Shown piece after piece: positions 2,869-52,294 of a DNA stretch of 64,000 bases. The DNA comes from Streptomyces sp. XY006 (lineage in GTDB: Bacteria > Actinomycetota > Actinomycetes > Streptomycetales > Streptomycetaceae). The stretch covers positions 1-64,000 of the forward strand of contig NZ_NOKT01000023.1 in assembly GCF_002237655.1 (NCBI RefSeq), in the 5' to 3' direction. Each line of letters begins with the position of its first letter. Within the stretch, counting starts at the first letter, position 1. The translations under genes were made by a program, and so were the position numbers. The notes beneath the pieces are model-generated. The model ran no database searches. It was given only the letters and a program-made list of their open reading frames with translations, and had not been told where the DNA came from.

Positions 2869-3624
2869 TCATGTGTCCTCCCCGGCGAACGAATAGGCGG
2901 CCCAGGGGCCGGTGAGTTCGACGCGCAGTCCGGGCGCTTCGTCCTTCGTGCGGTCGACCATCTCCACGAACTCCTCGGAGTGCGTGCGCGGTACGAGATA
3001 GGCGGCGTTGAGCACGTTCCGCCCGGACGCCTTGGACAGCGCCGGATTCTGCGGCGGGTGCAGCCGGGAGTCCTCCGCGAACGCGGAGAGCCTCTCGTGC
3101 AGCCGGGTGGAGAACGCCTCGGCCTTCTGCCACATCTCCTCGTGCGACCGCGTCTGCATGCGCCGCTGCCGCAGGTAGTCCCGGCCCGAGGCGGGCTTCT
3201 CCGCCGGGCGGGCGCTCTCCTGGGGGCCGGACTCGGCGTAGACCTTGACGCCCCACTCGACCCGGCCCTCCAGCCGGTCGAGGGTGCGGTGGAAGTCCTC
3301 CTCGCGGGCCTCCATCATCGACCGGACGCCGCTGTCGTCCAGGAAGACGGTGCCGAGCCGCAGCGGCAGCGGGGTCGTGACGGTGGTGAGCGCGTCGATC
3401 ACGCCCTGGTGGGCGCGGGCGGTGGCGGTGAGCCAGTCCAGGTCCTCCAGATGGGCCCGGAGCGCCTCCTCGGCGAAGTCCCGCTCCGGTACGTGACTCA
3501 CCACGGCCACCAGGCCGCGGTGAGTCAGCGCTCGGGGCGGATCGCCCGCCACCCCCGTCAACTGGGCCTGGAGCGGGGTACTGAAGGGGCGGCAGACGGC
3601 GTAGACGTACCGCAGTCCGGTCAC
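2869..3624 (-). CDS. gvpL: gas vesicle protein GvpL (GvpF/L family)
   Basis: A 251-residue member of the GvpL/GvpF family: starts with YVYAVCRPF, has a central PLPLRLGTVF motif and a C-terminal NAAYLVPR...FVEMVDR...VELTGPWAAYSF, the same order as in GvpF at 5980-6753 but with a longer linker. These proteins are accessory assembly factors, possibly binding GvpA before polymerisation. The GTG start overlaps the gvpJ stop by 4 bp. Confidence 0.92.
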   Translation of the reverse strand: MTGLRYVYAVCRPFSTPLQAQLTGVAGDPPRALTHRGLVAVVSHVPERDFAEEALRAHLEDLDWLTATARAHQGVIDALTTVTTPLPLRLGTVFLDDSGVRSMMEAREEDFHRTLDRLEGRVEWGVKVYAESGPQESARPAEKPASGRDYLRQRRMQTRSHEEMWQKAEAFSTRLHERLSAFAEDSRLHPPQNPALSKASGRNVLNAAYLVPRTHSEEFVEMVDRTKDEAPGLRVELTGPWAAYSFAGEDT

Positions 3625-48757: not shown

Positions 48758-49831
48758 ATGACCCTCGCACGCACCGAGACAGACCTGGCGAACCGCATCC
48801 TCGGCGGCTGGCAGGGCCGCATCGCGGGCAACATGCTCGGCAAGCCCGTCGAGCAGGGCGAGGTGTGGACCCGCGACCGCATCGACCGCTACCTGAGGCA
48901 GGCCTCCGCCCTCCCCCTCACCGACTACCTGCCCGAGCCGGTCAGCGAGCACGACGGCTTCGAACTGCGCCCGGAGTGGCGCCAGTGCGTCCGCGGCCGC
49001 ATCCACGGCAGCTGCCGCGACGACGACGTCGACTACGCGATCCTCGGCCTGGACCTGCTGGAGACGCACGGCTTCGGCTTCAGCACCGAGCAGGTCGGCG
49101 ACCTGTGGCTGCTGCGGCTGCCGTACCTGCAGACCTTCACGGCCGAGCGGGCCGCCTACCGCAACCTCGCCAACGGGCTCAAGCCGCCGCTGACGGCGAC
49201 GTACGACAACCCGTACCAGGAGTGGATCGGGGCCCTGATCCGCGCCGACATCCACGGCTGGACGTGCCCCGGCGTGCCGCGCCGGGCCGCCGCGCTGGCC
49301 CGGCGGGACGCGGTGCTCTCGCATACCGGCAACGGGGTGTACGGGGCGATGTGGGCGGCGGCGCTGATCGCGGCGGCGTTCACGGCGCCCACCGTGCGGC
49401 ACGCCGTCGACGAGGCCCTGGCCGTGATCCCGGCGAGCAGCCGACTGGCCCGCACGGTACGCCGGGTCGCCTCCCTGCACGACACGCGGATGTCCTGGGA
49501 GGACACGCTGACCACGGTCTCCGAGGAGACGCTGGGTCTGGGCTGGATCCACACCGTCCCGAACGCCGCCGTCCTCACGGCGGGCCTGCTCTACGGCGAC
49601 GGCGACTTCACCCGCACCATCACACTGACCGTGCGCGGCGGCCTGGACACCGACTCCAACGGGGCGACGGCCGGCTCGGTCGCGGGCGTGTTCGGCGGGG
49701 CCGCGGCCATCCCGGACCAGTGGAAACTCCCCCTGGAGGACACGGTCCGCAGCGCGGTCTTCGGCTTCGACGGCGTACGGATCAGCGAACTGGCGGAGCG
49801 GACGGTGCGGCTGGCGAAGGCCGGGGGCTGA
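48758..49831 (+). CDS. ADP-ribosylglycohydrolase family protein
   Basis: 357 residues with metal-binding motifs of the DraG/ARH family: GGWQGRIAGNMLGKPVE, DDDVDYAILGLDLLE, and near the C-terminus GGLDTDSNGATAGSVAGVFG with the Mg-binding DxDSN. These enzymes remove ADP-ribose from proteins or nucleic acid. It is followed by a Nudix and a sirtuin gene, which also act on NAD-derived molecules. Divergent from glycerate kinase. Confidence 0.9.
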   Translation: MTLARTETDLANRILGGWQGRIAGNMLGKPVEQGEVWTRDRIDRYLRQASALPLTDYLPEPVSEHDGFELRPEWRQCVRGRIHGSCRDDDVDYAILGLDLLETHGFGFSTEQVGDLWLLRLPYLQTFTAERAAYRNLANGLKPPLTATYDNPYQEWIGALIRADIHGWTCPGVPRRAAALARRDAVLSHTGNGVYGAMWAAALIAAAFTAPTVRHAVDEALAVIPASSRLARTVRRVASLHDTRMSWEDTLTTVSEETLGLGWIHTVPNAAVLTAGLLYGDGDFTRTITLTVRGGLDTDSNGATAGSVAGVFGGAAAIPDQWKLPLEDTVRSAVFGFDGVRISELAERTVRLAKAGG

Positions 49832-50451: not shown

Positions 50452-51207
50452 ATGGCCAAGTCCCTTGTCGCCCTGCTCACCGGTGCCGGGATCAGCACCG
50501 ACTCCGGCATCCCCGACTACCGCGGGCCGAACGGGCTGTGGCGGCGGGATCCGGACGCCGAGAAGCTCGTCACGTACGAGTACTACATGAGCGACCCGGA
50601 GATCCGGCGCCGGTCCTGGCGGATGCGGCTGGAGACCCACGCGCTGCGCCCGGAGCCGAACGCCGCGCACCGGGCGGTGGCCGAGCTGGAGCGGTCGGAG
50701 GTGCCGGTGCGCGTGATCACGCAGAACGTGGACGGGCTGCACCAGCAGGCCGGGATGCCCGCCCGCAAGGTGCTCGAACTGCACGGCACGGCCCGGAGCT
50801 TCGTCTGCACCGGCTGCCGTGCGCGCGGCCCGATGGAGGAGGCGCTCGCGCGGATCGAGGCCGGGGAGGACGATCCGCCGTGCCGGGAGTGCGGCGGAAT
50901 CCTGAAGTCGGCGACGGTGATGTTCGGTGAGCGCCTCGACCCGGTCGTCCTGGGCGAGGCGGCCGCGGTCAGCAAGGCCTGCGAGGTCTTCGTCGCCGTC
51001 GGCACGAGCCTTCAGGTGCACCCGGCGGCCGGTCTGGCCGGTGTCGCCGCCGACCACGGTGCCCGGCTGGTCGTCGTCAACGCCGAGCCGACGCCGTACG
51101 ACGACCGTGCCGACGAGATCGTGCGCGAGCCGATCGGTACGGCCCTGCCCGAGCTGCTGCGCCGGCTCAGGGCCGGGGATCGGCCCGCAGGTCCGCCAGC
51201 CGGGTGA
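50452..51207 (+). CDS. SIR2 family NAD-dependent protein deacetylase
   Basis: 251 residues with all sirtuin motifs: LTGAGISTDSGIPDYRGPNG, VRVITQNVDGLH, catalytic His111 in LELHGT, zinc cysteines 119, 122, 144 and 147, and MFGERLD, VGTSLQVHPAAG, VVVNAEPTPYD. Removes acyl groups from lysines with NAD, giving O-acetyl-ADP-ribose and nicotinamide. Its last 41 bp overlap the 3' end of the gene on the other strand. Confidence 0.93.
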   Translation: MAKSLVALLTGAGISTDSGIPDYRGPNGLWRRDPDAEKLVTYEYYMSDPEIRRRSWRMRLETHALRPEPNAAHRAVAELERSEVPVRVITQNVDGLHQQAGMPARKVLELHGTARSFVCTGCRARGPMEEALARIEAGEDDPPCRECGGILKSATVMFGERLDPVVLGEAAAVSKACEVFVAVGTSLQVHPAAGLAGVAADHGARLVVVNAEPTPYDDRADEIVREPIGTALPELLRRLRAGDRPAGPPAG

Positions 51208-51721
51208 GCGCGTCCCGGGCCGCCTCGCGCTCGGCGTCGCCGAGACGGACCGCGGCGGCCCGGGTCAGGAAGTCCGCCGCTTTGTCCTCGTCCCCGAGCT
51301 GTGCCGCGACGTCCCCGCGCAGGACGAGCAGTCGCACCAGCTGGACGTCCGCCGGTGTCTCGTCGGTGAGGGCCAGCACCCGGTCGACGACCTTCGCGGC
51401 CGCCGCCGGGTCCGCCTTGGAGTCCGCCAGCAGGGACGCGTGGTGCAGGGCCCGGGCGAACGTCTCTCCGGGGGCGGGGCCGTGGCCGTGGTGTACGCCG
51501 GTGCGCTGACCGATGCGGACGCAGTTGCCGCCCGGGTCGGTCATGAGGAACTGCCGCACGCCGTAGGACATGTCCTTGAGCGGCCCGAGCCGGGGCAGCC
51601 CCCGGGTGGGGACCCTGCCGTACGCGGCCTTGAGCCCGGCCCGGAACGCCTCGTGGAGGCCGTCGACGTCGTCGGTCAGGACGTAGCAGGTGCTGAACGA
51701 GGCGGCCGGCTCGTAGTGCTT
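51167..51721 (-). pseudogene. VOC/glyoxalase gene, C-terminal fragment with TPR-like tail
   Basis: Reading the minus strand from 51721 without a start codon gives KHYEPAASFSTCYVLTDDVD, LKAAYGRVPTRG, YGVRQFLMTDPGGNCVRIGQ: the C-terminal half of a VOC (bleomycin-resistance-like) domain, followed by a TPR-like region (ALHHASLLADSK ... LVRLLVLRGDVAAQLGDEDK) to 51167. An in-frame ATG exists at 51571 but would cut the fold. The missing N-terminal half is found in opposite orientation at 51722-51808. Confidence 0.75.
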
Positions 51722-51808
51722 GCTTCGAGGTGACCTACGCGCAACGCAGCCCCAATCCGTACGCCGTGGTGGAACGCGGCGCCGTCGAGCTCCAGTTCTT
51801 CCCGATGA
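51722..51808 (+). pseudogene. inverted N-terminal fragment of the same VOC gene
   Basis: The plus strand here reads GFEVTY-type VOC sequence: FEVTYAQRSPNPYAVV, then ELQFFPM, which in related proteins directly precedes the KHYEPAASFSTC found on the other strand. The two pieces abut head to head at 51721/51722. The first 20-25 codons (the start) are absent: the fragment ends next to the ogt stop at 51812. This fits an internal inversion of about 87 bp plus loss of the 5' end. Confidence 0.7.
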
Positions 51809-51811
51809 GGG

Positions 51812-52294
51812 TCAGAAGAGGGCCGCTCCGCGCTCGAAGTCCAGCAGGCGCTGCTTGCGTTCCAGGCCGCCGCCGTAGCCGGTGAGGCTGCCGTTCGCGC
51901 CGATGACGCGGTGGCACGGGACGATGATGCCGACGGGGTTGCGGCCGTTGGCGAGGCCGACCGCGCGGGAGGCGGCGGGGCTGCCGAGGGCGTCGGCGAG
52001 CCGGCCGTAGGTGCGCGTCTCGCCGTAGGGGATGCGGCGCAGTTCCTCCCAGACCAGGCGCTGGAAGGGGGTGCCGGTCAGGCGCAGCGGGACGGTGAAC
52101 TCCCGCAGCTCGCCCGCGAAGTAGGCCTTCAGCTGCTCCTCCGCCTCCGCGAAGAGGGTGTCGTCGCGGGGGCCGAAGGACTCCTCCGGCGGGCGGTGGC
52201 GCTGGCCGGTCATGTAGAGGCCGCACAGGACGCCGTCGTCGGCGACGAGGGTGAGGGGGCCGTAGGGGCTGTCGGTCACGGTGTGCTGCTTCAT
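51812..52294 (-). CDS. ogt: methylated-DNA-[protein]-cysteine S-methyltransferase
   Basis: 160 residues: TPFQRLVWEELRRIPYGETR and the active Cys127 in IVPCHRVIG. Transfers alkyl groups from O6-alkylguanine to itself (suicide repair). It starts 9 nt after the Ada-AlkA gene, forming an alkylation-repair operon. Confidence 0.95.
   Translation of the reverse strand: MKQHTVTDSPYGPLTLVADDGVLCGLYMTGQRHRPPEESFGPRDDTLFAEAEEQLKAYFAGELREFTVPLRLTGTPFQRLVWEELRRIPYGETRTYGRLADALGSPAASRAVGLANGRNPVGIIVPCHRVIGANGSLTGYGGGLERKQRLLDFERGAALF

Follow-up and report, generated by a model that had tools for sequence, protein, structure and literature searches.

Intragenic DNA inversions have reportedly been the subject of work by Chanin et al. 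in 2024. Programmed elements of this type, the invertons, carry inverted repeats of 10–40 nt according to the part of PMC11892184 available to us. Inversions of a second type are produced by short-range template switching. The accessible part of PMC7954356, on great apes, presents a four-point model of switches that yield one inverted fragment, among them the order 1-3-2-4; the orders 1-4-3-2 and 3-2-1-4 make up the majority there, and the paper reverses an earlier view of 1-3-2-4 as the commonest order. Inversions of rRNA loops in Actinobacteria and Firmicutes are ascribed to template switching in the available text of PMC8794818, and the corresponding text of PMC8604942 deals with inversion of the spacer between inverted repeats in yeast.

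The locus described here, in Streptomyces sp. XY006, shares with the mutations of PMC7954356 and PMC8794818, so far as these excerpts portray them, an inverted fragment of tens of bases, a nearby source, loss of the bases between the switch points and the 1-3-2-4 order. Those examples come from great apes and from rRNA or microRNA stems, whereas the target here is a bacterial protein gene, the mechanism is deduced from sequence, and the scale is 87 nt inverted with 103–137 nt lost. As in the yeast system portrayed in the excerpt of PMC8604942, template switching would have inverted coding DNA, but the present case has only a 5-bp repeat, a large deletion and loss of the gene. With invertons, as outlined in the excerpt of PMC11892184, it has in common a short inverted segment within a coding sequence, but its edges lack repeats of 10–40 nt and a flip could not restore a gene whose start is deleted. 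Set against many relatives, the locus is a clear example of a micro-inversion plus deletion that most likely killed a bacterial gene, an event easily mistaken for a gene start that has diverged or is absent.

The window analyzed is a stretch of 64,000 nt, in which an earlier note, made from the letters alone, had seen a VOC gene split head-to-head by an inversion of about 87 bp. The minus-strand frame from 51721 encodes KHYEPAASFSTC... for 184 aa up to a stop at 51167, and the plus strand over 51722–51808 encodes FEVTYAQRSPNPYAVVERGAVELQFFPM. In two related genomes the remnant and the block match opposite strands as adjoining stretches of one gene, with E values of 3.8e-172 and 3.1e-22 in G009 and of 4.9e-171 and 3.2e-23 in G026. 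The earlier note had thus correctly placed the C-terminal part, the preceding block and their meeting point at 51721/51722. The reverse-strand score of the block was 52–63 against 12 relatives, compared with 12–15 for the best of 100 simple shuffles each; judged by the alignments, the two-piece pattern is not due to chance. Features of the locus are listed in the table.

Table. Features of the disrupted VOC-TPR locus and its neighbors, in window coordinates.
Feature	Position	Strand	Remarks
ADP-ribosylglycohydrolase-like gene	48758..49831	+	marks the conserved neighborhood
SIR2-family protein, 251 aa	50452..51207	+	3' end overlaps the end of the VOC remnant by 41 bp
VOC-TPR gene remnant: C-terminal half of VOC domain plus TPR-like tail	51167..51721	-	184 codons plus stop
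Right junction (VOC direction)	51721..51722		GAAGC directly followed by AAGCACTACG; a single base serves twice and AAGC is tandem
Inverted 87-nt block, VOC gene codons ~25-53	51722..51808	+	opposite strand to the remnant
Left junction	51808..51812		3 nt away from the stop codon of ogt; ambiguous homology of 0-2 nt (TC, vs G009)
ogt, 6-O-methylguanine-DNA methyltransferase, 160 aa	51812..52294	-	frame intact
Ada/AlkA-type protein, 493 aa	52304..53785	-	passes the cut-offs for the Ada metal-binding, HTH and AlkA N-terminal domains

Piecewise alignment was carried out with the 12 relatives that have ogt beside the VOC-TPR gene. Forward, reverse-complement and forward pieces, the arrangement that defines 1-3-2-4, were placed in all 12, the reverse piece overrunning the block against L107. 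Seven relatives gave block limits of exactly 51722–51808, in agreement with the extent proposed earlier; the limits were 51724–51808 against L101 and L080, 51722–51809 against L163, 51722–51810 against L090 and 51724–51826 against L107. The gap at the right junction was -1 against ten of the 12, -2 against L163 and -20 against L107, and the left junction reads TGACCC(TC)|ATCGGG in the VOC direction. The remark in the earlier note that the ends carry no inverted repeats held for long ones, since none bounds the block in the window (longer imperfect pairs lie elsewhere) and none of 10–40 nt was found at the block edges, but a 5-bp pair, GCTTC...GAAGC, bounds the block in 7 of the 10 relatives whose edges were read; L107 and L163 gave no match to the search expression and fall outside this count. 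When the window was compared with the fetched stretches of G221 and G009, the block was the sole match on the opposite strand that lay close to its collinear position at E 1e-4 or better. Long same-direction matches covered 59 kb and 47 kb, respectively, in this comparison, which would miss shorter inversions and in which the G009 stretch was short of the first ~12 kb of the window.

The inversion is accompanied by a deletion, which refines the earlier reading. Relative to the 12 aligned genomes, 103–137 nt are absent on the ogt side, which removes an intergenic palindrome and the first 24 codons of the VOC-TPR gene. The distance from the ATG to the Gly codon at the block edge is 72 nt in all five relatives measured, matching the earlier estimate that 20–25 codons are gone, and the ogt–VOC intergenic stretch, 34–46 nt long in five of five, has almost entirely disappeared from the window. 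A search of the assembly with the G026 version of the deleted piece matched the ogt end alone and returned no other match better than E 0.0255, hence no sign that the N-terminal piece had moved elsewhere in the genome. No second complete VOC-TPR copy was found in the genome, the one other match, on contig C22, covering 54 aa at 37% identity with 2 stops.

The unbroken arrangement was evident in relatives. A genus search covered 392 genomes drawn evenly from a larger group, and 198 of them had a match at 1e-8, many to the ogt end alone. Among the matches listed, alignments of the C-terminal part stop at or before query position 323, which is the junction, and the strain's own genome alone runs through. 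Five genomes read closely (G284, G026, G221, G148 and G009) share one gene order, namely ADP-ribosylglycohydrolase, SIR2, VOC, ogt and Ada/AlkA, and in each the VOC gene is a single frame, 237 aa long in four genomes and 233 aa long in the fifth. A GTDB r220 protein search with the G284 gene yielded 107 relatives, of which the best 80 were kept; the middle and C-terminal parts of the VOC gene lie on one strand and at most 12 nt apart in every one of these 80 loci. Named relatives include S. djakartensis, S. coeruleorubidus, S. iakyrus, S. paradoxus and S. afghaniensis. ogt is adjacent in nine of the 80 kept loci and the SIR2 gene is also present in eight of these, the ninth (L091) stopping a short way beyond the VOC gene. 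The contigs of L089 and L090 equal in length those of G284 and G026. In homologs the sequence of the plus-strand block carries on the N-terminal half of the VOC protein, and this comparison did not refute the split-gene reading. The earlier note had further suggested a repair event next to ogt, or an artefact; a special tie to ogt did not hold up, given that ogt lies upstream of the gene in relatives too and the same order occurs where the gene is intact. In a tree of ogt, alkA and the ADP-ribosylglycohydrolase gene, the window grouped with G221, S. iakyrus and S. paradoxus (support 0.92). Neither an intermediate state nor a second isolate of the species was found.

We consider it probable that the VOC-TPR gene was destroyed by one compound inversion and deletion through template switching of the 1-3-2-4 kind. 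Synthesis running from ogt toward the VOC gene would have halted a little beyond the stop codon of ogt and switched to the other strand some 190–200 nt ahead. There it would have copied 87 nt backwards before resuming on its first strand next to the point of entry. The 5-bp inverted repeat at the block edges could have aided the jump. The product would be the end of ogt followed by inverted codons ~25–53 and then codon 54 onward, with the palindrome/promoter stretch and codons 1–24 lost. A single switch would explain inversion and deletion together, for the right side shows a 1-nt overlap against 10 of the 12 relatives and one deletion covers the left side; the flanking gene order, conserved in relatives whose VOC gene is unbroken on a single strand, points the same way. 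Plain recombination between the 5-bp repeats is argued against by the extra AAGC at the junction, which would not be expected from it.

The junctions have almost no homology, and on this point end joining fits equally well. Breaks would have freed the 87-nt piece, the ogt-side end would have been trimmed by ~110 nt, and Ku and a ligase would have rejoined the piece backwards. The genome does encode Ku (164.1 bits against a family cut-off of 25), and junction homology of 0–2 nt with one base used twice is what blunt or filled-in ends could leave. For end joining, however, a single cell would have to suffer several breaks inside ~200 nt and then recapture the 87-nt fragment, whereas template switching would proceed without breaks; we regard end joining as a close rival, but the less probable of the two. 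An inverted chimera introduced during library preparation or assembly appears less likely again. The assembly is a 73-contig draft, and one degenerate exact pattern for the junction had 0 matches in GTDB r220, where the window's own and near genomes may be left out. The site is nonetheless 51.7 kb inside a contig of 150,366 bases, and the remainder of the 8.25-Mb assembly lacks the lost piece, although the true version ought to persist somewhere if the junction were chimeric. A programmed, reversible inversion switching the VOC gene on and off, to which the short inverted segment within a gene and the 5-bp edge repeat of seven of the ten relatives read might hint, is ruled out for practical purposes by the lack of 10–40 nt repeats bounding the block in the window, by the loss of the start codon, 24 codons and palindrome, after which flipping alone cannot turn the gene on, and by the single orientation of all 80 homologous loci (best 80 of 107). 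The rearrangement is most likely an inversion plus deletion private to this strain and of a known kind; it may be a variant of the culture instead of a fixed feature of the strain.

Domain matches indicate that the intact gene is a VOC-TPR gene, encoding a bleomycin-binding-like VOC domain followed by a TPR-like tail. The Glyoxalase model PF00903 (gathering cut-off 20.6 bits) was passed by four of five relatives at 25.1, 22.2, 24.5 and 21.1 bits, the last being L131; the fifth, L121, had no match to it at E 0.001. The C-terminal part in the window scored 13.5 bits, below the cut-off, and retained a TPR-like match, while the inverted block had no domain match and the two VOC halves of the window copy are not in one reading frame. 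Amino acid identity of the remnant to the 12 relatives is 75.5–80.4%. The G009 protein matches the PDB entries 1ewj, 1ecs, 1mh6 and 1jie over approximately residues 2–125 (E 1.1e-7 to 4.9e-6); NCBIfam Ble models fell far under cut-off in three relatives (39.8–43.8 of 210 bits for ble_BLMT), so the relatives are Ble-like and their Ble identity is putative. The G009 protein thus resembles bleomycin-binding VOC proteins in its sequence match to all four structures, but the VOC-TPR family adds a TPR-like tail of ~100 residues and the window copy is without the N-terminal half. Among the neighbors, the Ada/AlkA-type protein has an HhH-GPD match of 25.3 bits, slightly below the cut-off of 26.2.

The start, the upstream stretch and half of the VOC fold are missing, and the remnant is therefore most likely a pseudogene from which no functional VOC protein is made. 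Its 184 codons contain no stop or frameshift; the first ATG, GTG or TTG in frame is the ATG at 51571, and the 134 aa left from there could be annotated as a short protein. We estimated dN/dS with our own Nei–Gojobori script, comparing medians of pairs that include the window with those of pairs among relatives (S. tuirus L092, whose ogt and alkA values are odd, perhaps through draft errors, was kept in the counts). The remnant gave 0.506 for window pairs versus 0.337 for relatives, with dN of 0.140 versus 0.081. This ratio was 0.591 versus 0.400 in the TPR-like tail and 0.350 versus 0.250 in the VOC half, where dN was nearly equal (0.065 versus 0.058). The window differs at seven columns that do not vary among the 12 relatives, compared with 0–4 for each relative left out in turn. 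The divergence of the remnant is thus only moderately relaxed. A difference of this sort is slight in the neighbors, for which window and relative values were 0.254 and 0.202 (ogt), 0.145 and 0.115 (alkA), 0.190 and 0.186 (SIR2) and 0.113 and 0.158 (ADP-ribosylglycohydrolase). Change in the 29 codons of the inverted block has been mainly synonymous (dN/dS 0.193 versus 0.245, dS 0.501 versus 0.176), as would be expected if the block had been under selection until recently. The substitution pattern suits a fairly recent event and proves nothing.

The palindrome lost with the gene start recurs in the relatives. Scanning of the 80 loci (L089–L168) for a region reaching from 60 nt upstream to 30 nt downstream of the matched VOC-TPR start found TCAANNTTGA there in 75, at about position 2950–2990 in most, and it stands 13–14 nt before the matched start in 59 of those 75. 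It was absent from a control stretch 310–400 nt upstream and from the 64-kb window. The 523,096 bases of the 80 loci contain 80 palindrome sites, of which the remaining five belong to L131, L165 and L166. A PadR homolog is divergent beside the VOC-TPR gene in ten of the 80 loci (L131, L165, L166, L121, L124, L127, L132, L159, L167 and part of L097, where the match covers 50 aa only), with the palindrome before the VOC-TPR gene, and a DrrA-type gene then follows in three of the 80 (L131, L165 and L166; Pfam was run for L131). In the strain's own genome, contig C26 has two copies of the palindrome at ~81061–81124 (L087:1505–1560), flanked by a PadR gene on one side and a DrrA-type ABC ATPase gene on the other, and G284, G221, G148 and G009 likewise have two between their PadR and DrrA-type genes. 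The exact pattern AGTCAANNTTGACTA, which misses this clade's VOC-gene variant with G as the first base, occurred in five of ten genomes searched and was absent from G026, G034, G021, G016 and G036. A looser search of the strain's own genome (16 letters, 2 mismatches) returned the two C26 sites and a third on C3, at C3:93669–93684 (L086) with 2 mismatches; the open reading frames listed beside this third site included no recognized gene, and no regulator was found there.

Gene neighborhood and palindromes suggest that PadR controls the VOC-TPR gene. We tentatively propose that a PadR repressor, a DrrA-type ABC exporter and the VOC-TPR protein could form one drug-response regulon with the shared palindromic operator core TCAANNTTGA in Streptomyces and some other Actinobacteria. 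The window genome would then be a natural half-regulon, having lost the VOC arm and its operator in a single copying accident and kept the PadR–exporter locus with its two palindromes on C26. Titles and abstract starts of literature on PadR with Streptomyces, bleomycin, DrrA, VOC or TPR yielded no description of such a regulon. If true, it would give a testable function to the VOC-TPR family of many Streptomyces, and this possible PadR/DrrA-type regulon could prove of more interest than the inversion event.

Other lesions of the family were encountered among the kept loci. S. lomondensis (L163, around 3150–3165) has the same gene order and a frameshift in its VOC-TPR gene within about two codons of the position of the window's right junction; the proximity may be coincidental, stem from a sequencing error or mark a fragile spot. 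S. wuyuanensis (L112, around 3190) has an in-frame stop ~63 codons into the gene. Loss of VOC-TPR is thus not unique to the window, only the manner of its loss. In a further locus, the frame from the VOC-TPR start (L160:3001) is 515 codons long, possibly the result of a fusion or of a lost stop codon.
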